A stretch of DNA of 48,814 bases from Burkholderiaceae bacterium (GTDB lineage: Bacteria > Pseudomonadota > Gammaproteobacteria > Burkholderiales > Burkholderiaceae_C). The translations under genes were made by a program, and so were the position numbers. Positions 27,802 to 38,810 of this stretch are shown here, piece by piece. A model generated the notes under the pieces. The model did not search any database. It saw only the letters and a program-made list of their open reading frames with translations, and was not told where the DNA came from. Positions within the stretch are counted from its first letter, which is position 1; each line of letters opens with the position of its first letter. The stretch is taken from the NCBI GenBank assembly GCA_023954035.1, contig JAMLIT010000029.1, positions 1 through 48,814 on the forward strand, given 5' to 3'.

Positions 27802-28237
27802 CACCACCGCAACGGGCCGTAGGCAGTCTGAAGTTCAATGCAACAAAGCAATACACTGACTCAGGCTAAACAATTGTCACAGTCAAATGTCTGCGCCGCA
27901 ATGGATTTGCGCCAGGCCGGCGTCATCCTGGGACGGGCTTTTGCCCGTGTGGTTCGGCAACAAAGCCGCGACCAGAGCCACAAGCGCGAGGTACGTCGGA
28001 ATAAGGACACCATGGCAAATTGGGCTCCCTTATCGGCCAGACACTTAAATCAATCAGAAACGTTCAGTCGGCAGCAATATAACGATCATAAATAATGAAG
28101 CCACTTCATAGGCTTTGCCATAGTCTATTCAACAACTAATAAGTTGCGTTCTCATCTCACTCCTGACCGACTTTCGGATCATTCTATGAGTACAATTGAC
28201 CAAACGCCCTTCCCGCTGCCCACTGTTGCCCACGTTC

Positions 28238-29098
28238 ATGTTTAATGCCCTTCAGCGTGTCGTTGGCACGACCAAAAAGAACACCTTGCCCAGAGCAACA
28301 CCCCTGTTCCTAGTATTTAGCATCTGGCGGAACCGCCATCTCATAGTCAACCTGACAAAACGCGAGGTAGTTGGTCGATACCGAGGTTCGGCCATGGGTT
28401 TGCTGTGGTCAATGCTCAACCCAGTGCTAATGTTGGCTGTCTATACATTTGTGTTCAGTGTCGTGTTCCAGTCCCGATGGCCAGGAGGCAGTAACTCCAA
28501 GGTAGAATTCGCACTTATTTTATTTTCTGGTCTAATTGTATATACGCTTTTTAGCGAGTGCTTTACGCGCTCCCCCGATTTGATTACAAGTAACGTGAAT
28601 TATGTAAAACGGGTCGTCTTCCCGATCGAGGTGCTTCCAGTAGTTGTTCTAGGGACTGCGTTGTTTCATACCGCCATCAGTTTATTTGTATGGCTTTGTT
28701 TCTACTTTGCTTTCATTGGAATTCCGAGTCTGAGCACGCTATTGGTTCCCGTTGCGTTAATCCCTCTTATGCTTATGACTCTAGGTGTATCATGGATCAT
28801 AGCGTCCCTAGGAGTCTATCTCCGGGACATTGCCCAAGTGGTGGCAATAGTCAATATGATACTGATGTTTTTATCGCCTATTTTTTATCCCATTAGTGCC
28901 CTGCCAGAAAAGTATAGATTTCTTGTATTGGCCAATCCATTGGCGTTTACAATCGAACAAATACGAAATGTCTTGATCTGGGGACAGAGCATATCTTGGG
29001 TCAGCTGGGCTCTTCAACTCATCACTGGATTGCTGGTCACTTCAGTTGGTTTTTATTGGTTTCAAAAAACCAGAAGAGGTTTTTCTGATGTCCTCTAA
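28238..29098 (+). CDS. ABC transporter permease for polysaccharide export (Wzm-like)
   Basis: A 286-residue ABC-2 type membrane protein with six hydrophobic segments, starting at about residue 55 (LLWSMLNPVLMLAVYTFVFS). The early amphipathic KREVVGRYRGSAMGLLW and the late LSPIFYPISALPEKYRFL with NPLAFTIEQIRNVLIWG are typical of Wzm/TagG/KpsM exporters, which move lipid-linked polysaccharide across the inner membrane. The start is not certain: ATG 28238 lacks a good ribosome site. The gene overlaps the ATPase gene by 11 bp. Confidence 0.9.
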   Translation: MFNALQRVVGTTKKNTLPRATPLFLVFSIWRNRHLIVNLTKREVVGRYRGSAMGLLWSMLNPVLMLAVYTFVFSVVFQSRWPGGSNSKVEFALILFSGLIVYTLFSECFTRSPDLITSNVNYVKRVVFPIEVLPVVVLGTALFHTAISLFVWLCFYFAFIGIPSLSTLLVPVALIPLMLMTLGVSWIIASLGVYLRDIAQVVAIVNMILMFLSPIFYPISALPEKYRFLVLANPLAFTIEQIRNVLIWGQSISWVSWALQLITGLLVTSVGFYWFQKTRRGFSDVL

Positions 29099-30344
29099 AT
29101 TTATTATTGAAGTGAGACAGCTTTCCAAGCGTTACGAGATCTATAACACGCCTCGCGATCGATTACTTCAGTTTTTCAGTTTTGGCCAGCAGAAATATTA
29201 TCAAGAGTTTACAGCCCTGGATTCGCTTTCCTTCACCGTCCAAAGAGGTGAAACGGTTGGAATCATTGGTCGCAATGGATCGGGAAAATCTACACTGCTA
29301 CAAATAATAGCTGGTGTTCTTGCACCGACCAGCGGAGACATTGCGGTACGCGGAAAAGTTGCAGCTTTGTTAGAACTTGGCTCTGGATTCAATCAAAATT
29401 TCACAGGGATAGAAAATGTTCGACTCTATGCATCCATCTTGGGCATGAGTCCCGATGAAATTGATCGGCGACTACCTGATATTCTGAAATTTGCAGATAT
29501 TGGCGATTTTATAAATCAACCAATCAAATTTTATTCAAGCGGGATGGTTGTTCGATTGGCTTTTGCCGCAGCTATTCACGTAGATCCGGATATTTTAATT
29601 GTCGACGAGGCTCTATCCGTTGGTGATACGGCCTTTCAGCAAAAATGCCTTAACCGGATTCGGCAGATGCAGAAATCCGGAGTTTCCATTTTATTGGTGA
29701 CACACTCCTCAAATACGATCATTGAGTTTTGTGATCGTGCTCTCTTTCTCAAGCATGGGCAGCTGGTTCTGGATGGCGCGTGTCGCGATGTCGCGCGAGC
29801 CTATGCTGACGACATCGTAACTTCTGAAGGCGGCAATTCGTGCGAATCAATCATTGAGCCATCAGCCAGAATTGCGGCCAGCGCCGCCGAGCAATTACAG
29901 CATGGCGCGCAAATGACACCTGCAACGCTGATTATAAAAAAGGTTGAATTGCGCAATGCACAGAATGACCTATGCGCGTCTGTGCAGTTTGGTGAAGCGA
30001 TATTCATTGATTTTCAAATTGAATTGTTTCAGCCACTGCAATTTCCATGCTTTGGGATCCAGATATCCAGCCCCGACGGAATAGCGCTTTGGAGTGCCAA
30101 TACCATGAACATGGATGTCTCCCCGCCTTCGATGCAGCCCGGAAGTGTAAATCTGCGTTGGTGCATAAAAGCCAATTTCGGTGGCAATCGCTATGTAATT
30201 TCACTTGGCGCTGGAGAAATCTCCGAGGGCGAATATAGGCGCCACCATCGTCTCGGCTATGCAGGCCATATCGACGTAATACAGATGCGAGCGGCGGGCA
30301 CTGGTTGGCTCGCACCAGATCCAAGATTCTTCATAAATCAATAG
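29088..30344 (+). CDS. ABC transporter ATP-binding protein with C-terminal extension (Wzt-like)
   Basis: A 418-residue protein. The ATPase domain (about 1-245) has Walker A GRNGSGKS at 61-68, the signature region YSSGMVVRLAFA, and Walker B ILIVDEALSVGD; the Wzt-type segment GSGFNQNFTGIENV is present. Residues about 255-418 form a separate domain that, in Wzt proteins with such extensions, binds the modified non-reducing end of the O-antigen and makes export depend on it; that role is inferred here. AGAAGAGG precedes the ATG at good spacing, and the start lies inside the permease gene. Confidence 0.92.
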   Translation: MSSKFIIEVRQLSKRYEIYNTPRDRLLQFFSFGQQKYYQEFTALDSLSFTVQRGETVGIIGRNGSGKSTLLQIIAGVLAPTSGDIAVRGKVAALLELGSGFNQNFTGIENVRLYASILGMSPDEIDRRLPDILKFADIGDFINQPIKFYSSGMVVRLAFAAAIHVDPDILIVDEALSVGDTAFQQKCLNRIRQMQKSGVSILLVTHSSNTIIEFCDRALFLKHGQLVLDGACRDVARAYADDIVTSEGGNSCESIIEPSARIAASAAEQLQHGAQMTPATLIIKKVELRNAQNDLCASVQFGEAIFIDFQIELFQPLQFPCFGIQISSPDGIALWSANTMNMDVSPPSMQPGSVNLRWCIKANFGGNRYVISLGAGEISEGEYRRHHRLGYAGHIDVIQMRAAGTGWLAPDPRFFINQ

Positions 30345-30468
30345 ATCTCTCTAAAGTTCAAAAATCGAGCCCAACGATTGATCTCATAGAGCCGATCTTG
30401 CGAAAGTGACATCTTTAGAAGCGCCCGATCGATTTCAGCTATTTCGATACAATGACTAGTTGATTTTT

Positions 30469-32061
30469 ATGACATCAGCAACGAATAAAATAATCTCCAA
30501 ATACCCGAGCCCTAAGATTGTACTCGTCGGTTGGTATGGTGCTGGAAATCTTGGTGATGAGCTATTACTAAGCACAATGATACGAGAAGTGCATTCGCGC
30601 GGCATGGAGCCCATCATCGTTTCCTTGGATCCAACATATACGACCAATTATCACTGCGTGCAATCCATAGATTTTGAAGACCTAGATGCGTTGCAATTAG
30701 CAATTGACGGCGCATATGCTTGCGTACTAGGCGGCGGCGGATTATTTCAGACTTATTCCCCTTTTGAATATTCCAGCTTATTTGAATTCAGTCTTGGCGA
30801 CGTTGCGAGTTATGCACGACCAGTTTTGCTAGCTCAGCAACTCGGAGTGCCAACTGCCCTGCTCGCACAAGGTGTTGGCCCCTTAGATACTTCAGCCGCT
30901 CAAGGAATTGTCGCGCTCTTGTTTTCTGGTGCTTCATGTGTGAGCGTTCGAGATGTTGCTTCTCGTGACTTGCTGAATGCTATTGGTGTTGAGCGCGATA
31001 TTACTGTTGCACCGGACCCCAGCTGGGCGTGGGAAATGCCCGAGTTGCCCCAACCAAGTCGTGCGCAGTCTCACATGAAAATCGTACTAGTAGTTCGAGA
31101 CTGGTCATTTGTATCCGGCTGGGAGGATCGTCTTTTATCAGCATTGCGGCAGACCTTCGATCCCGCGGTGCACGAATTGGTGTGGGTTCCATTTCAAGCC
31201 CGTAACGTGCCTGAACGGTCGAGCTCGGATACGGATCTACTACACCGACTCATGACTGGCCTCGGAGATTATTGGAATCAAAGATTGTTTGAATGGACGA
31301 ACATTCCGCAGGCTGTAGAAATGATTGCTTCCGCCGACGCCGTGATCGCCATGCGTATGCATGCGCAAATACTGGCTTTGAAGCTGAATAAACCAACCCT
31401 ATGCCTTGAATATGACGAAAAAATGACTCAGGTATCTATTCAAGCTGAAGTTCCACTTCAACGCCGCTTACGGTTGACTTCCGATCAGGATATCTGGCTT
31501 CAAGCCGTCAGGTCGCTTTTAGTCGATAGCTCTGCCAATCATGTGCAAAAAGAGAACATTCAAAGACTCGCGTCAAGCGCGGGCGCTCATTTTGCTTTAT
31601 TGTGGGAAACTCTAGGAATGTCAACAGGAGAGAGACCCCCCTCTCTCACACAAAATGGACAACACCTAGACTGGCTATCTTTTTGGCGCACCTGGGAAAA
31701 GACAAAAAATATTACACGCTACCCTGCTTCTAGAATACGAGAAATGGATTTTTTTATAGGAAAATCATCTGAGGAGAATAAAAACGTTGAACAACCGAAA
31801 TTCTATAATGCTTCTATCGCATTTCAAATAGGAATGCGAGCGCGTGAATCCAATTATTTAGAATTGCATCGGGCTTTCGAGCAAAAGGCGCAAGAAGCCG
31901 AAGAAGAACGAAATCGAAATCAGCTTCTTGAAGCCGATCGCGCACGTTCTATAGAATTACTGCAGACACAAATTGCTCGATCAGAGCTTTTAGAAGATCA
32001 GCTACAACAAATCCAATCCGCTAAACTGTGGAAGTTGCTGCATTGGCTGAAGATTCTCTAA
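30469..32061 (+). CDS. Polysaccharide pyruvyl transferase family protein with C-terminal coiled coil
   Basis: A 530-residue protein. Residues 15-350 resemble the CsaB/pyruvyl transferase family: GNLGDE at 26-31, VLGGGGLFQ at 87-94, LLAQGVGPLD and RMHAQILALKLNKPTL at 296-311. Such enzymes transfer pyruvate from PEP as a ketal to a sugar. From about 461 to 515 is a heptad-rich helical stretch (many Glu, Gln, Arg, Leu), ending in SAKLWKLLHWLK, like the membrane-proximal tails of large O-antigen enzymes. It lies 124 bp after the Wzt gene on the same strand. Role in chain capping is a hypothesis. Confidence 0.82.
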   Translation: MTSATNKIISKYPSPKIVLVGWYGAGNLGDELLLSTMIREVHSRGMEPIIVSLDPTYTTNYHCVQSIDFEDLDALQLAIDGAYACVLGGGGLFQTYSPFEYSSLFEFSLGDVASYARPVLLAQQLGVPTALLAQGVGPLDTSAAQGIVALLFSGASCVSVRDVASRDLLNAIGVERDITVAPDPSWAWEMPELPQPSRAQSHMKIVLVVRDWSFVSGWEDRLLSALRQTFDPAVHELVWVPFQARNVPERSSSDTDLLHRLMTGLGDYWNQRLFEWTNIPQAVEMIASADAVIAMRMHAQILALKLNKPTLCLEYDEKMTQVSIQAEVPLQRRLRLTSDQDIWLQAVRSLLVDSSANHVQKENIQRLASSAGAHFALLWETLGMSTGERPPSLTQNGQHLDWLSFWRTWEKTKNITRYPASRIREMDFFIGKSSEENKNVEQPKFYNASIAFQIGMRARESNYLELHRAFEQKAQEAEEERNRNQLLEADRARSIELLQTQIARSELLEDQLQQIQSAKLWKLLHWLKIL

Positions 32062-32287
32062 TTTTCTTTAAATATTTCTACACCTTTCATCTTGATCGAA
32101 ATTGAAGACGATGTTCTGAAAATATCCTTGATGCAGTTACGACCACCAACATTTCTGGTACGTACGCTTTTATCCGTGGGGCTCACGGTTACTTTAATTC
32201 GTCACACTTTCCAGCTATGCTTGCGGATCCAATGGCGCATTCCAAAAAATCCGCGTGCAAGAATCGCAGCAAAACCGGCCGAACTTG

Positions 32288-33469
32288 TCAACACCACGGA
32301 TTGGTGGCGTGATCGTCCGAGGTACTACGGGACTTGAAGGAGTGCAGGTCAGAGGAAGAATTTTTTACAGTTTCCCCAAAAAGGATAGAGCGTATACGCT
32401 CAACGAACCGTTCTGTCGTAAATCGCTGAGCTTGAGCAATGCAGGCGGCAGACATGGAAGCACCTCGGAAGCGTTCCGTTTTAATTACTGCAGCAATAAT
32501 TGCTTCGACGCTCAGCGGGCCGTTGACCAAAAATCCCGTCACGTCGTCCACGACAGTTTCCAATAATCCACCCTCTGCAACGCCAATAACTGGCTTTCCC
32601 GCCGCCATCGCTTCTACCGGAGAAATTCCAAAATCTTCATCCACCGGCACATAGATCACCGCCCGTGCCTGACCAACCCACGTCCGAACCTGCAAGTCTG
32701 TCTGCCATCCCGTGAAAGTAATGTTGCTTGCGGACGCAGCTAAGGCTTTGAGTCGACCCAATTCGGGGCCACCCGACAAAACAACCAACTTGTGCCGCGG
32801 CATTCTTAAAAATGCGCGAACAATCATGTCTACTCGTTTAGTTGGAACTAAGCGGGCTGTAGATAGATAGTAACCACCGTCTCCTAGTTGCTGAAAGTCC
32901 CGAGTGTCTACTGGCGGATAAACCACTTCCGCGTCCAACCCTGTAAAGTTTTTAAGGCGCTGACGCACATTTTCAGAATTTACCAGAATTTTATCCATCC
33001 TGCTAATTGCAGATTTGTAATATTTTCTAAAACAAAGAATAAATACCGCGTACATCGGACGCACAGGGAGCGGCATTCTGGACAGCGTTATTTCATATAG
33101 ATCGTATGCATAGCGTGGAATGGTGTGGCAATAATAGACTCGCTGCCCGCCGCGCTGAATGTAAACAGCGAACGGTGCATAGAATCCGCTATAAATCACT
33201 TGCTTCGCATCCCGCAAACATTGCGCCCGCAATCGAAAGCACCACATACTCTCCAGAATGCGGGGTAAACATACAGACCATCCGCCGCGAAGTTCCTCTA
33301 CGCTAGCAGACGAACTTTCGAGAAGTGGCTGTGCTGCTGCATAGCAACGACTCACCAGCACCTGAAATCCAGGCAACGCTTCAGCCAGAGTCAAAGTGAC
33401 GCGCTCAGCCCCTCCTGCAATCTGCATGAAATCGTACAGTATGAAATTGTTCGCCGCCAATTTCTTCAT
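32288..33469 (-). CDS. Glycosyltransferase family 4
   Basis: A 393-residue GT-B enzyme. The acceptor half begins near LYDFMQIAGGAERVTLTLAEAL, a typical GT4 start with the GGAE motif; the donor-binding half has STARLVPTKRVDMIVRAF, LVVLSGGPELGRL and the EX7E motif EDFGISPVEAMAAGKPVIG. The sugar is not deducible. The ATG at 33469 has AGAGG 8 bases upstream, preferred over a GTG at 33478. It is the most downstream of the four leftward genes of the island and converges on the pyruvyl transferase gene. Confidence 0.9.
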   Translation of the reverse strand: MKKLAANNFILYDFMQIAGGAERVTLTLAEALPGFQVLVSRCYAAAQPLLESSSASVEELRGGWSVCLPRILESMWCFRLRAQCLRDAKQVIYSGFYAPFAVYIQRGGQRVYYCHTIPRYAYDLYEITLSRMPLPVRPMYAVFILCFRKYYKSAISRMDKILVNSENVRQRLKNFTGLDAEVVYPPVDTRDFQQLGDGGYYLSTARLVPTKRVDMIVRAFLRMPRHKLVVLSGGPELGRLKALAASASNITFTGWQTDLQVRTWVGQARAVIYVPVDEDFGISPVEAMAAGKPVIGVAEGGLLETVVDDVTGFLVNGPLSVEAIIAAVIKTERFRGASMSAACIAQAQRFTTERFVERIRSILFGETVKNSSSDLHSFKSRSTSDDHATNPWC

Positions 33470-33546
33470 CAATGACACCTCTCAGCAATCGGTGCGCCAA
33501 AAATCTGCAGCGCATGGCACAATGAATAGGCGATCAACTCATTAAA

Positions 33547-34827
33547 TCAAGTGCTCCTAGAGGCACTCAGATCCTCCAAGATTTTTTTCAAGCTATTTGA
33601 CCGAGCAGACCATCCGTGCCGGCCCTTGATCTCCGCTACATCAAACTCATTCAGCCCCATTTCTCCGTGACTCCAAAGCCGAATCAGCTGCATCAGAATA
33701 TCAGCGATCGACTTATAGGAATTGTCGGAGATAAATGACAAAGGAAAATTCCTCAATACTTCCTCTGAAGGATCTGATTCGGAGCCACGAAGATGCAAAA
33801 TAGCCTTGCCTGTCACTAGATATTCGAAAATCTTTCCAGGTATCTGATAATCCTGAGTGTTTCCAATGTTCAACAAAACATCCGCAGCCCCTTGTAATGC
33901 GAGACATTCAAAATGTTCCAACCGATTTAAGAATGTAACATCGGGAACATCCGAAAAAAGATGTGCAAAATGAATATTTTCACCTGCAATAGTAACTGCA
34001 ATCTCTGGACTATTCAAAAGACGAAGTGCCTTCGCAAACTCATCCGGATTACGAAATTTTCTATAGAAATTTCCTGTAAAAACGATATGGAGCTTCCCAG
34101 GCTTAGACCAAAGTGCGCCAGCAGAGGCAGGAGGTGCATCCGGCGCACCCTGTGCAACAGTGGCAAACTTTTCAAAATTTAACCCTCTGTGCCGCCGTAA
34201 TAATACGTCCCGCAGCGCATCCGTAGTTAGGATCACTCTATCTGCACGGCGAAGCACCAGACCCTCAAACCACACATCTAGCCACCGGCGCCAGCGGGGC
34301 GCATAAGGCGCGCACAAAGGATCCGCCATATCAACGACCCAAGGGAGAGATCCAGATTTTTGCGCCCATAATCCTAATAGTAAATCCACGCCGGGCTCAT
34401 GGGAGCTAATGATGACGTCAAACGAATGCTCACGCAACAACCGCCCAAGCCTGCGCCGGGCAAATGGATACCACTCGGTACGAACGTCGGGATAAATTAT
34501 CTTGTCAAGCAGTTGACGAACTGCTGTATATACACGCATCAGGTACGATCGGGCGATATTTTTCTGACCCGGCGAAGCCCCTTCACCAGGTCTAAGTAGG
34601 ATGCCGGAAAGCGCCTGGGCCAACCCAATAAAAGGCCCCGGCCAGACCCTGTGCTCGACTACATTTGGGTGACTATTTACTAAATACGGGGGCAACGAGG
34701 TGATATCAGGGCAAAGAACATGAACTAATACGCCACGGCTGGCCAGCCCATTTGCCAGGTAATACCATCGCAGCGCCTGCGCAGCAGAGATTGGTGGCCA
34801 TTCGTAAGCTAGCAACAATACCTTCAC
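33547..34827 (-). CDS. Glycosyltransferase (GT4-like)
   Basis: A 426-residue GT-B type protein. The N-terminus KVLLLAYEWPPISAAQALRW is a typical acceptor-domain start; a donor-domain region shows LHIVFTGNFYRKFRNP and then KIFEYLVTGKAILHLRGSES, the position of the conserved Glu near the nucleotide sugar. Sugar and linkage cannot be read. It starts 12 bp after the wecB stop, so the two are almost certainly co-transcribed. Confidence 0.85.
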   Translation of the reverse strand: MKVLLLAYEWPPISAAQALRWYYLANGLASRGVLVHVLCPDITSLPPYLVNSHPNVVEHRVWPGPFIGLAQALSGILLRPGEGASPGQKNIARSYLMRVYTAVRQLLDKIIYPDVRTEWYPFARRRLGRLLREHSFDVIISSHEPGVDLLLGLWAQKSGSLPWVVDMADPLCAPYAPRWRRWLDVWFEGLVLRRADRVILTTDALRDVLLRRHRGLNFEKFATVAQGAPDAPPASAGALWSKPGKLHIVFTGNFYRKFRNPDEFAKALRLLNSPEIAVTIAGENIHFAHLFSDVPDVTFLNRLEHFECLALQGAADVLLNIGNTQDYQIPGKIFEYLVTGKAILHLRGSESDPSEEVLRNFPLSFISDNSYKSIADILMQLIRLWSHGEMGLNEFDVAEIKGRHGWSARSNSLKKILEDLSASRST

Positions 34828-34839
34828 TGCTTGCTGCCT

Positions 34840-35940
34840 TTATCTTAAGAAGTGTGCTCGCAGTACGTCTACAATACGTCCTGCAGCCTGCCCATCACCG
34901 TATGGTGATATCCCTCGTGCCATTTTTTTGTAGGCTAGCGCGTTATCGAGCAAATTTTGCGTCTCATGCACAATCCGCTCGTAATGCGGGCCCACGAGCT
35001 TCACAACACCCTGCTCGATAGCCTCCGGCCGCTCAGTTTCATCGCGCAATACCAGAACTGGCTTACCTAATGCTGGAGCCTCTTCTTGTACGCCGCCAGA
35101 GTCCGTCAAAATTATGTATGCACGCTTCATCGCTGCAATAAAGGGAGCGTAATCAAGTGGATCGCACAGAATGAAGTTCGGCACTCCTCCTAAAAACCTA
35201 TGTACCATTTCTTTGACGTTAGGGTTGGGGTGCACGGGATAGAGAAACTGGACTTCGGGATTGTCCTCAGCCAGGGTCTTCAGTGCACGACAGATATTAT
35301 GCAAAGGTTCGCCAAAATTTTCTCTGCGATGAGCCGTAACCAAAATTAATCGCTTAGCCGGTTCCAGCGGGATGGTAAGCTTCAGTTCCTTAGACGCTGT
35401 TATCAACAAGGCATCAATGACCGTATTTCCCGTAACGGTTATGTCAGCATCCAGAATCTTTTCCTTAAGCAAATTCTGCCGCGAACCCTCAGTGGGGGAA
35501 AAGTGCCACTTTGCAAGCTTGCCTGTAATGACCCGATTCGCTTCCTCCGGAAATGGGTTGAGCATATCCCATGTGCGTAATCCGGCTTCTATGTGCCCAA
35601 TGGGGATGCGATGATAGAAGGAGGTCAAAGCAACGGACATAACTGTGGTTGTATCACCTTGAACTAATACCGCGTCCGGCTTTTCCCGCAGCAGTACATC
35701 GTCGAGTTCAAGCAATAGCCGAGCAGTCAGAGTCGTGAGCGCTTGGTTTGGACGCATGATATCCAAATCAATATCAGGAGTGACCCCAAAAAACCGGTTT
35801 ACTTGATCCAGCATGCTTCTATGTTGAGCCGTGGCAAGGACCACTACGTTCACCCAAGGCTCGGCTCTAAGCGCAAGGATGACGGGTGCCATTTTGATAG
35901 CTTCGGGTCGCGTTCCGATTATACATAGAATCTTCTTCAT
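34840..35940 (-). CDS. wecB: UDP-N-acetylglucosamine 2-epimerase (non-hydrolysing)
   Basis: A 366-residue enzyme that interconverts UDP-GlcNAc and UDP-ManNAc. Family blocks are clear: GTRPEAIKMAPVI, TAQHRSMLDQV, VQGDTTTVM, HIEAGLRTWDMLNPFPEE, VTAHRRENFGEP and DSGGVQEEAPALGKPVLVLRDETERPE. It should supply ManNAc units (or ManNAcA precursors) to the island's polysaccharide; no dehydrogenase WecC is in the window. Its upstream region holds the 9-bp tandem repeat. Confidence 0.95.
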   Translation of the reverse strand: MKKILCIIGTRPEAIKMAPVILALRAEPWVNVVVLATAQHRSMLDQVNRFFGVTPDIDLDIMRPNQALTTLTARLLLELDDVLLREKPDAVLVQGDTTTVMSVALTSFYHRIPIGHIEAGLRTWDMLNPFPEEANRVITGKLAKWHFSPTEGSRQNLLKEKILDADITVTGNTVIDALLITASKELKLTIPLEPAKRLILVTAHRRENFGEPLHNICRALKTLAEDNPEVQFLYPVHPNPNVKEMVHRFLGGVPNFILCDPLDYAPFIAAMKRAYIILTDSGGVQEEAPALGKPVLVLRDETERPEAIEQGVVKLVGPHYERIVHETQNLLDNALAYKKMARGISPYGDGQAAGRIVDVLRAHFLR

Positions 35941-36054
35941 ATTCCCTGATCATTCTAATGCTTGGCACCCATGACGGAGATCGGGTCAAGACATTTAAAA
36001 AGCATTTATTTACTAACTCTGCTTCTCTGCCTTCAATAATTTACGGACAACCGT

Positions 36055-36117
36055 TTTATTGACTTTATTGACTTTATTGACTTTATTGACTTTATTGACT
36101 TTATTGACTTTATTGAT
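36055..36117. repeat. 9-bp tandem repeat, seven copies
   Basis: Six exact copies of TTTATTGAC in a row (36055-36108) and a seventh with one change, TTTATTGAT (36109-36117). It lies in the 283-bp gap between the glycosyltransferase at 36224 and wecB, upstream of wecB. Each unit boundary makes TTGACT on the + strand, close to a -35 hexamer. Confidence 0.95.
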
Positions 36118-36223
36118 GTTTAATAGATTATTACAGAAGAATAGCATCGAAAACCCCGCAACAAATTAAAGATTTTCAATTTGATCTTCCGTTTATTCCC
36201 AAATCGCTCCAAATATCTATTTA

Positions 36224-37567
36224 CTATACTTTGCGGAAGCAAATTTCATAAGACTTGGCCCGCTGTAGCCAGTCGTTCTCGTCGGCAAGATTTCTCAGCC
36301 GTTCTTTATAATATCTCTGGTCTTTTACCTTTATGGCCTCATCAATTGCCGTGCTGAGCTCGACGGCAGACCCCCCCTTAAAGACCTCTTCATATACTAT
36401 GCATTCATTCATATCCGCGGTCACAACCACAGGCTTCTCCATCGCAAAGTACTCGAATAATTTTAATGGCGACGTAGATTTTGCAATTTCACCTGGCTTG
36501 AATGGAATAAAGCAGACGTCAAATTCTCGAGCGTAGAGAGGCAGAATTTTGTAATTTACAGCATCGAGTCGTAATACATTGCTTTGTTTTGGCAATTTCT
36601 CTGCACCCCCAAAATAATCCGGACCAATAAAAATAAACCCTATGTCCGCCCGCATAATGGCTAGTTCTTTTATGCACTCATACCATAACCACGGCGCAAG
36701 CGCCCCGAAGTATCCTACAATTACTCTAAATCGTTGCCCAAATTCAAGAAATTTTTTTGGCAATTCAATCTGATGACTCATCGAGCTTCTGTAATGATTC
36801 GTATCGACCCCATTAGGAATTAAAATTACCTTTTCCTCGCCCACCGCTTGTACAGCTTCTTGATAGAGGTTCTTTGCAGAAGCAACAATGAAGTCAGCAC
36901 CTCCAGTAAATGCATACTTCTTTATATCAGCTAAGCGCTTTATGTTTTCCGCTTCCCCACTTATTTCTGGATGAATATGATCGATATATTCATAAATCAA
37001 AACCCCTCGCTGCCCACCTTCTTCTATTGATTTCGGTGAATTTGCATATGCAGTTGAATATATTGATCGAACAACTGAAGGAATGCGATCTACGTTTCTA
37101 TTGTTTGTTATCCATACATTTTTCGCGACTTCTCGAAACCCCTCTACATCATCTCCCGCCCAATTATCAGTTCGATATATGACCAAATAACCCAATTTTC
37201 CTAATGCTGATGCTATGTGCTGAGGCCTCTGATATAAAGGCACATTCCAGTCAATAACCAGCTCCTGGATAAAAACGCCTTTAAAATTATGTCTATTTGA
37301 AAGAATATTTCCCTCGAATTCACTCCAGGAAATATCTAAGGGGTTCGAGTTTTTTGCGAGGTCTTTTTTCTTCAAATGGTTATCACCAATCTGAGCAACT
37401 AAAACATCTACAGGGCGCTTTATTTTCTCCCTAACACCATACGGCAGCTTAAAAAATACAAATCGAAGGATTCGGTAGAGTTTTCCTTTCGGTGACAGAA
37501 TATTTGCCCTCAAGATATACGCAGCAAAACTGGCAGGCAATAATCTGAACTTCGCTAAAATAGACAT
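36224..37567 (-). CDS. Glycosyltransferase (TuaH-like)
   Basis: A 447-residue protein, the most AT-rich gene of the window with many AAA/ATA codons, unlike the flanks. After about 90 residues of helical N-terminus comes FIQELVIDWNVPLYQRPQHIA, a motif of TuaH-type glycosyltransferases; then VILIPNGVDTNHY, VIVGYFGALAPWLWYE, GPDYFGGAEKLPKQSNV and the donor-site SPLKLFEYFAMEKPVVVT. It should add one sugar of the polysaccharide. The base composition points to transfer from another lineage. It is the first gene of the leftward set. Confidence 0.88.
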   Translation of the reverse strand: MSILAKFRLLPASFAAYILRANILSPKGKLYRILRFVFFKLPYGVREKIKRPVDVLVAQIGDNHLKKKDLAKNSNPLDISWSEFEGNILSNRHNFKGVFIQELVIDWNVPLYQRPQHIASALGKLGYLVIYRTDNWAGDDVEGFREVAKNVWITNNRNVDRIPSVVRSIYSTAYANSPKSIEEGGQRGVLIYEYIDHIHPEISGEAENIKRLADIKKYAFTGGADFIVASAKNLYQEAVQAVGEEKVILIPNGVDTNHYRSSMSHQIELPKKFLEFGQRFRVIVGYFGALAPWLWYECIKELAIMRADIGFIFIGPDYFGGAEKLPKQSNVLRLDAVNYKILPLYAREFDVCFIPFKPGEIAKSTSPLKLFEYFAMEKPVVVTADMNECIVYEEVFKGGSAVELSTAIDEAIKVKDQRYYKERLRNLADENDWLQRAKSYEICFRKV

Positions 37568-37844
37568 ATTTATTTTTATATAAAGACTTGCAACAAGTTA
37601 ACCACCACTAGTTTTTGGCCGGGAGGGAAATCGCACGGAGCACGACGACCGGGTAAACCGCAATTGTCAGATTCCGCTGAAACGCTGTAGACCGGTCGAG
37701 CGAACTGGATGCACACAGCCGATTCACAGAACAACGATTTTCAATGGATCCACCAGAGTTTGGGTCCCGCGGTTCTTGCGCGATGGATCGGCGAAAAGGT
37801 GGATATTGAAGGCGTTACCTGCCGCAAGCGTACTCATGAGAGCG
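37568..37844. other. Right border of the polysaccharide island
   Basis: A 277-bp stretch between the TuaH-like gene and the hemF stop. The base composition is intermediate. An open + frame from 37709 runs over the hemF end but shows no recognisable family. No nadD fragment is visible on either strand. The junction with ancestral DNA is probably just inside the annotated hemF end, at about 37862. Confidence 0.55.
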
Positions 37845-38810
37845 CTAGAGAAGGGTGCGAATTGAAACCCAATCGCGTGGCACAAGAAAATGCTCGGTCA
37901 AGTTCGCCTCGGGCGAGCCCGCTGCCGGCGTTCGTCGATAGGCCCAACTGGCCAGGGGCGGCATGGACAGCAGGATGGATTCGGTGCGCCCGCCCGACTG
38001 CAGACCAAAGTGCGTTCCCCGGTCCCACACCAGATTGAATTCCACGTAGCGGCCGCGCCGGTAAAGCTGGAAATCGCGCTCGCGTTCGCTGTAGGGCGTG
38101 TTCTGGCGTTTCTGAGCGATGGGCAGGTAGGCGGGCAGAAAAGCATCGCCCACCGCCTGGGTCATGGCCATGCTTTGCGCCGGGCCCAGCTCAGAGAAAT
38201 CATCGAAAAAAACGCCCCCCACGCCGCGCTGTTCGCCCCGGTGCTTGAGGCGGAAATACTCGTCGCACCACTGCTTGAAACGGGGGTACTTGTCTTCGCC
38301 GAAAGGTGCCAGAGCACTCTGACAGGTGCGATGGAAATGCACCACGTCTTCGTCAAAGCCGTAGTACGGCGTCAGGTCCATGCCGCCACCAAACCAGCAA
38401 ACGGGCGCCTCGCCAGGATGGGCGGCTGCAATCATGCGCACGTTCATGTGCACCGTGGGCACATAGGGATTGCGCGGATGGAAAACGAGCGAGACACCCA
38501 TAGCCTCAAACGGAGCGCCGGCCAGGCCGGGCCGGTGCTGGGTGGCAGACGGCGGCAAGCGCGGCCCGCGCACGTGCGAGAAGCCGCAGCCGGCGCGCTC
38601 GAAGACGCGCCCACCTTCGATGATTTGGGTGATTCCGTCGCCCTGCAACTGGTCGCCCTCGGCCTTTTGCCAAGGGTCCACCACCGCCTGGGCGCCGGAC
38701 TCGCCCTCGTCTTCCATGTCCTGAAGCGCACCGACGATGCGGTTCTGCAGCCCCAGCAAATAGCCACGCATGCCTTGGGTGCCTGCGCCGTCGACAAACA
38801 CGCGGCTCAT
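37845..38810 (-). CDS. hemF: Oxygen-dependent coproporphyrinogen III oxidase
   Basis: A 321-residue enzyme that oxidatively decarboxylates coproporphyrinogen III to protoporphyrinogen IX in heme synthesis, using O2. Conserved blocks: [77 protein letters not shown] and MPPLASWAY. HemF proteins usually end just after PRDW; here the frame continues Val-Ser-Ile-Arg-Thr-Leu-Leu, as if the original stop had been lost at the island junction. The start at 38810 fits the family; a longer frame to 38957 covers the purD end. Confidence 0.95.

Follow-up and report, generated by a model that had tools for sequence, protein, structure and literature searches.

A pyruvyl transferase with a C-terminal coil beside a Wzm–Wzt exporter: a candidate capping and length-ruler system in a Burkholderiaceae bacterium

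Can a pyruvyl transferase that carries its own coil serve as both the capping enzyme and the length ruler of an exported surface glycan? The question is raised by three genes on a contig of a Burkholderiaceae bacterium (GenBank assembly GCA_023954035.1, contig JAMLIT010000029.1), of which a stretch of 48,814 nucleotides, called the window here, was analyzed at its full length. They encode the two parts of an ATP-binding cassette (ABC) exporter, Wzm and Wzt, and a 530-residue protein whose pyruvyl-transferase-like head is followed by a long helix. We consider it moderately probable that at this locus pyruvate caps the chain end, the coil sets the chain length and the C-terminal domain of Wzt reads the cap. 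The three genes are consecutive and all on the plus strand, with the start of wzt overlapping the end of wzm by 11 bases. Their Pfam domains all score above cut-offs, which bears out the order, strand and identities given in an initial annotation of this DNA.

28238 to 29098, plus strand: wzm, ABC-2 exporter permease, 286 amino acids; PF01061 (ABC2_membrane), 89 bits
29088 to 30344, plus strand: wzt, ATPase of 418 amino acids with a C-terminal carbohydrate-binding-type domain; ABC_tran 82.7 bits, Wzt_C 53.4 bits
29850 to 30341, plus strand: Wzt residues 255-418, cap-binding-type domain of a distinct subclass; matches to 6o14 and 5hno, and a profile gap
30228 to 30269, plus strand: GEYRRHHRLGYAGH, subclass motif of the Wzt domain, conserved in four pyruvyl-linked Wzts
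30469 to 32061, plus strand: pyruvyl transferase with C-terminal helix, 530 amino acids; PF04230 113.2 bits, GT-B-type head in the AlphaFold2 model
31801 to 32055, plus strand: long helix, residues 445-529, containing a COILS-type coil at 456-515; COILS-type score and AlphaFold2
32017 to 32058, plus strand: tail SAKLWKLLHWLKIL, residues 517-530, rich in Trp and Lys; compared by eye with the S-x-S-W-R element found after coils in relatives

Is the head an active pyruvyl transferase? Its PF04230 (PS_pyruv_trans) score stands far above the gathering cut-off of 25.3 bits, in keeping with the pyruvyl-transferase-like enzyme first annotated. The closest NCBIfam model is the CsaB equivalog TIGR03609, at 175.1 bits against a curated cut-off of 213.1; the four coil-bearing relatives described below also fall under 213 (161-199 bits with the window included), and a Paenibacillus protein (L057) reaches 264 bits, above the cut-off. 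The NxGD, RxxxS/T and His motifs, as in Kelly et al. 2023, are present as N27-L-G29-D30, R161-D-V-A-S165 and H298. Residues R161, R210, H298 and K318, and likewise Y23, N27, G29 and D30, are invariant in all six aligned rows (window, four coil-bearing relatives, L057). The first four were matched by motif to CsaB residues R148, R207, H308 and K328. In P. alvei CsaB, changes of R148 and R207 and two of four changes of H308 abolish activity, and K328R alters the affinity for phosphoenolpyruvate (PEP) (PMC10435577; statements on published systems here draw on excerpts of the papers cited). An AlphaFold2 model built from eight alignment rows has a GT-B-like head, and GT-B-fold enzymes fill the best 50 rows of both Foldseek and VIA-align; neither 5ax7 nor 6x1l is among those rows, and a sequence profile matches the two weakly (E 0.0053 and 0.054). 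With the PEP-binding residues of CsaB kept, the protein is plausibly an active pyruvyl transferase. A head that transfers no pyruvyl group and serves as a structural domain only would fit the CsaB scores under the cut-off in the window and its four relatives. We regard it as very improbable, as the head retains NxGD and all four PEP-binding residues and matches PF04230 so well.

What follows the head is predicted to be a helix. A COILS-type calculation places a coil at residues 456-515 with P 0.88, the second highest value among 68 open reading frames of at least 250 residues from five sources. AlphaFold2 draws a single helix over residues 445-529, with block means of 72-88 over 471-530 and 45-59 over 441-470. 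The helix is well supported by the model from about residue 471, and a coiled coil in the protein is fairly supported. If straight, a helix of 60 to 85 residues would span 8.9-12.6 nm. The basic/aromatic tail reported in the initial annotation, SAKLWKLLHWLK, is confirmed as residues 517-528.

Does the same fusion occur elsewhere beside an exporter? Counting the window, all five coil-bearing loci adjoin one, which answers the homologue search that had been suggested for this protein. On plasmid pBYT5-5 of Pseudomonas sp. BYT-5 (L010), wzm and a Wzt_C-type wzt stand with a 1020-residue pyruvyl transferase-coil-glycosyltransferase fusion, a GT4 gene and wecB; the head of the fusion is 41% identical to that of the window. 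A Rhodocyclaceae genome (L011) encodes a 1200-residue fusion including two glycosyltransferase domains, and a betaproteobacterium (L013, by its protein the same contig as G396:C36) has pyruvyl transferase, coil and a GSRSYR tail. The fifth member, in G467, is described below. The window permease is 52% identical to that of BYT-5 and 53% to that of the Rhodocyclaceae locus. Upstream of the latter cluster, at positions 1-2353 on the minus strand, another large protein is encoded, in which STSWVVTRPLR comes after a coil-like stretch.

In a tree of 19 of 21 heads (L033 was dropped for length, L012, described below, was left out as a copy of the BYT-5 locus, and several coil-less rows are long-branched), a branch with support 93/91 sets the five coil-bearing heads apart from the rest. 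The four heads paired with a Wzt domain group at 99/98, and the window groups with BYT-5 at 96/92. After the catalytic R-x-H, 171-906 residues follow in the five coil-bearing proteins and 56-101 in 12 coil-less ones, the motif search having missed three. Matches to the window Wzm and Wzt adjoin the pyruvyl transferase in 5/5 coil-bearing and 0/15 coil-less loci (Fisher p 6e-5), and a wecB match is present in 4/5 and 1/15, respectively (Fisher p 0.005). These p-values overstate the association: the test is not independent because the coil-bearing loci form one clade of shared origin, some coil-less loci are close kin, and each locus is covered by 6 to 25 kb of DNA, the window by more. The count covers 20 loci and draws on two of 11 plasmid records, a third being the sister plasmid of one of these two. 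No further member was found among genome contigs searched with the 530-residue protein as single query, in viral contigs searched with alignment A3 plus a phage search, or, as to coil-bearing members, in 398 genomes of the phylum sample with alignment A3.

How might the exporter recognize a pyruvylated end? The C-terminal domain of Wzt, put at about 160 residues when first described, comprises 164 (residues 255-418), and Wzt_C (PF14524) is matched at 283-400, above its gathering cut-off of 30.4 bits. The AlphaFold2 model of Wzt is poor overall (mean pLDDT 54.7) and was used for this domain alone, where blocks reach 71-87 over residues 281-380, with 53 over 381-390, the motif region. It matches the solved-domain beta-sandwich fold: 6o14 (A. 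aeolicus Wzt) with a TM by target of 0.74 and rmsd 2.2, and 5hno (a Kdo-reading Wzt) with 0.65 and 2.4; the first seven Foldseek rows are A. aeolicus Wzt. The four pyruvyl-linked Wzts have PCFGIQ, GxRY (one varies by a serine) and GEYxRxxRLxYAGHxDV...GxGWLxP in common, and GEY, R385, R388, L389 and YAGH are invariant, giving the motif R..RL.YAGH.

A profile of these four domains, built including both high scorers and with at most 9-10 candidates per genome scored, gave 268 bits for the genome of the window (G000) and 257 for G396 among 399 genomes, the next score being 42.7. The gap lies within true Wzts, because the matches in the other 21 genomes are all proteins with ABC_tran and Wzt_C above both cut-offs; R[LI].YAGH occurs in 2/23 profile-matched loci. 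Among 369 class genomes, which overlap partly with the 399, the window domain again scored 268 bits and the next 50.9. Ten loci were checked there, and R[LI].YAGH occurs only in the window's own (0/9 for the nine of ten other matches checked). Such scarcity fits a reader domain dedicated to a single cap. In A. aeolicus Wzt, cap binding has been linked to His350, a loop spanning 354-355, and Trp362 (PMC9445017). The profile match stops at A. aeolicus residue 349, just before His350, and gave no alignment of the YAGH region with that loop; the motif lies just past the last aligned residue, and a role for it in cap binding is our inference.

Could the coil be a ruler whose length changes? The BYT-5 locus and a second record (L012) are identical over the first 1216 bases of the latter and in 927 of 928 bases after the coil. 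The two pyruvyl-transferase genes (L010 13333-13671 and L012 1-1276) are exactly 210 bases apart in length, five 42-base units of the coil repeat, giving 12 versus 7 fourteen-residue blocks. The shorter coil may be a repeat collapsed in assembly from short reads. The L012 contig, labelled Streptomyces, has genes resembling those on the Pseudomonas plasmid; it is possibly mislabelled or contaminated. In it, a transposase-like gene adjoins a shortened glycosyltransferase part and a shortened wzt. Searches for repeat-number variation in more records returned the E. coli plasmid described next and two BYT plasmids only.

Is the pyruvyl head one of several in the same place? In the 399-genome sample, 21 other Wzt_C loci were inspected, and 8 have a flanking frame with a coil score above 1.4. 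Six of these frames are Pfam methyltransferases, five of them with an S-x-S-W-[RK] element after the coil. The genome of the window itself has such a locus on contig C5 (L023, 5258-9157): a second wzm, a wzt bearing Wzt_C, and a methyltransferase with a coil (P 0.99) that ends in the Trp/Arg tail DRSWSARWRRFWGAM. This locus lies at most 2 kb from the sole PF00953 match of the genome at E 0.001 or better. On E. coli plasmid pKTa005_1 (L067, NZ_CP147085.1, 6038-11401), a protein of 1787 residues combines a sulfotransferase head and a coil with S-x-S-W-R and three glycosyltransferase domains. Its coil is encoded by 42-base repeats in 13.8 copies, its neighbours are wzm, a wzt with Wzt_C, cysD, cysN and cysC, and coil plus S-x-S-W-R element are 43.7% identical to the BYT-type 14-residue-repeat region. 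It is a candidate sulfate-capping ruler, and a limited literature search turned up no description of a sulfotransferase-coil protein of this type.

Because 6/21 other Wzt_C loci have a methyltransferase with a coil in their flank, the window system looks like a known ruler with a swapped cap-making head. We offer a wider proposal tentatively, as a guess that may well be wrong: cap chemistry would be an exchangeable cassette, with methyl-, pyruvyl- or sulfuryl-transferase heads set on the same coil and S-x-S-W-R element and a matched Wzt domain. The plasmid coils would be 42-base repeats of changeable copy number, making chain length retunable by slippage, and the window, whose coil is short and degenerate and whose glycosyltransferase has become a separate gene, would be a pyruvyl form on the chromosome.

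Which sugar would be capped, and where in the chain? Four further genes of the cluster follow on the minus strand.

32288 to 33478, minus strand: GT4-type glycosyltransferase, 396 amino acids; PF00534, 81 bits
33547 to 34827, minus strand: GT4-type glycosyltransferase, 426 amino acids; PF13579, 58.7 bits
34840 to 35940, minus strand: wecB, UDP-GlcNAc 2-epimerase, which would give UDP-ManNAc; TIGR00236, 472.9 bits
36224 to 37567, minus strand: TuaH-like glycosyltransferase, 447 amino acids; TuaH model 79.8 bits, under the cut-off of 550

The wecB gene is 76% identical to that of the BYT-5 plasmid cluster. The TuaH model also matches the C-terminal parts of the BYT-5 and Rhodocyclaceae fusions, at 35.9 and 51.1 bits, both likewise under 550. 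Since the last glycosyltransferase of these fusions is TuaH-like, and the TuaH-like enzyme of the window is a separate gene, the window looks like the split form of a fused enzyme. Five 2-kb blocks over 28001-38000 have a GC content of 43-50% against 57-68% in the other 19 blocks listed, so the cluster is probably a foreign, acquired stretch. Between wecB and the TuaH-like gene, at 36055-36116, a nine-base tandem repeat, TTTATTGAC, is present in 6.9 perfect copies and could vary in length.

With wecB in the cluster, ManNAc is a possible capped sugar, as it is with CsaB. The enzyme might instead pyruvylate every repeat unit, on ManNAc for example, with the coil as a scaffold: its nearest named model is CsaB, wecB is present in the cluster, and in P. 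alvei pyruvate sits on each repeat (PMC6801904). We judge this quite unlikely. The CsaB family does both placements, because in B. anthracis pyruvate is carried on the terminal ManNAc alone; a Wzt with a C-terminal domain together with a coil marks end-capping systems; and the Paenibacillus enzyme L057, a CsaB outside the coil clade, has no coil extension.

For the end-capping system, the following course of events is proposed. The product would be a surface glycan, either O antigen or capsule, exported by the ABC transporter and made by a capped route in which a lipid-linked chain is extended in the cytoplasm by glycosyltransferases. The 530-residue protein would act as terminator, its N-terminal head moving pyruvate from PEP to the growing-end sugar as a ketal and so stopping extension. 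The helix, probably in an oligomeric coil, would keep the head at a distance of some 9-13 nm from a tail bound to the membrane or the polymerase, and chains would therefore be capped only once they are long enough. The C-terminal domain of Wzt, whose subclass is found here with the pyruvyl enzyme alone, would bind the pyruvylated end and admit the chain to Wzm. The initial annotation had drawn this picture from WbdD of E. coli O9a. The catalytic residues, the coil clade beside the exporter, the matched Wzt subclass in four of five members and the methyltransferase-coil counterparts agree with it; terminal position of the pyruvate, oligomer, length setting, cap reading and acceptor are inferred.

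Several observations weigh against a ruler that sets length at this locus. Ahead of residue 471 the helix is modelled with low confidence. When heptad hydrophobicity is tested plainly, the BYT-5 coil (p 0.0015) and L012 (p 0.004) are significant, and the window (p 0.64), the betaproteobacterium L013 (0.08) and the Rhodocyclaceae protein (0.73) are not. The 14-residue-repeat coil of BYT-5 reaches only P 0.16 with a 28-residue COILS-type window (0.82 with 21), the pKTa005_1 coil has no segment over 0.5 by that score, and no single measure supports every coil. The 'heptad-rich coil' of the earlier description is therefore fair, not strong: the coil-prediction check proposed with it comes out positive by COILS-type score and AlphaFold2 helix, and not by heptad periodicity by itself. 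In 13/21 other Wzt_C loci no coil is found in 1.5 kb of flank, and no wecB was found in the 21 kb of the Rhodocyclaceae locus. The fifth coil enzyme (G467, L025, 1188-3356) stands by wecB and an ABC exporter whose Wzt, of 249 residues, lacks the Wzt_C domain; we label it a natural uncoupled variant. What the Wzt profile itself shows is that such domains are scarce in the rest of the samples; it does not show that they bind pyruvate.

In a different role, terminal pyruvate would be a decoration or export tag, and the helix would anchor the enzyme to the membrane or recruit glycosyltransferases without measuring length. WbbZ of Klebsiella O1 offers a precedent for terminal pyruvate without length control (PMC10629545), the window coil is short with weak heptads, and the G467 coil enzyme does without a Wzt domain. 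We think this role unlikely, if by no means far-fetched. All five coil-bearing enzymes adjoin an exporter, four with a matched Wzt domain; the coil lengths of two near-identical Pseudomonas-type loci differ by whole 14-residue units, assembly error being possible; and no such length-export coupling is described for Klebsiella O1 in the excerpts of PMC10629545.

A pyruvate cap read by the exporter and measured by a coil would matter in several ways. The literature caps tied to coil rulers are, in the excerpts drawn on, methyl, methylphosphate and Kdo, with pyruvate proposed in print and unproven. The window locus and its four relatives form a compact set in which cap, reader domain and ruler are separately testable. 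The motif R..RL.YAGH yields a specific prediction for the reading of a carboxylate cap by an exporter, and the Pseudomonas-type plasmid form provides two near-identical loci with different ruler length, unless the shorter is an assembly error.

How does the window compare with known systems? WbdD likewise has a cap-making N-terminal head, a C-terminal helix, and Wzm plus a Wzt with C-terminal domain, whereas its head is a methyltransferase-kinase and its C-terminal region has 249 residues (460-708) against about 85 in the window; that region is tied to trimer formation and polymerase recruitment (Hagelueken et al. 2012; PMC3482155). CsaB of Paenibacillus and Bacillus is the closest NCBIfam head, with the same PEP-binding residues and a ManNAc acceptor plausible through wecB, but it serves a Gram-positive wall polymer, and L057 has no Wzt match in its 6.9 kb. 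WbbZ adds terminal pyruvate to an ABC-exported O antigen in Klebsiella O1 without markedly affecting length; in these excerpts neither a coil nor length control is described for it, and its exporter is of relaxed specificity (Kelly et al. 2023; PMC10629545). WbbB (Klebsiella O12) and the O4/O7 terminators have Kdo or methylphosphate caps and share with the window a coil protein, a distal terminator and a variable polymerase-module fusion. A coil protein marks this strategy, with the terminator at the distal end and polymerase fusions that vary (Kelly et al. 2024; PMC11231755), and this is the pattern of the coil-bearing pyruvyl transferases here. The BYT-5 protein resembles that of the window in its head, its wzm-wzt-enzyme order and a nearby wecB, and differs in its 14-residue-repeat coil and fused glycosyltransferase.

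The initial annotation knew of no described pyruvyl-transferase ruler, a statement that does not hold: in Kelly et al. 2023 (PMC10629545), B. vietnamiensis G4 and P. protegens are put forward, without validation, as candidates for pyruvate termination with length regulation. Their proposal agrees with the one made here in giving pyruvate both the terminating and the length-regulating part. A word search of two P. protegens O-antigen papers (PMC10715155, PMC9213528) for pyruvate, Wzt, ABC transporter, chain length or coiled gave nothing. The window is a member of this proposed, unvalidated pyruvate variant of coil-ruler systems. What the present analysis adds is the matched motif in Wzt, the pattern of swapped heads and the difference in length by whole repeat units.

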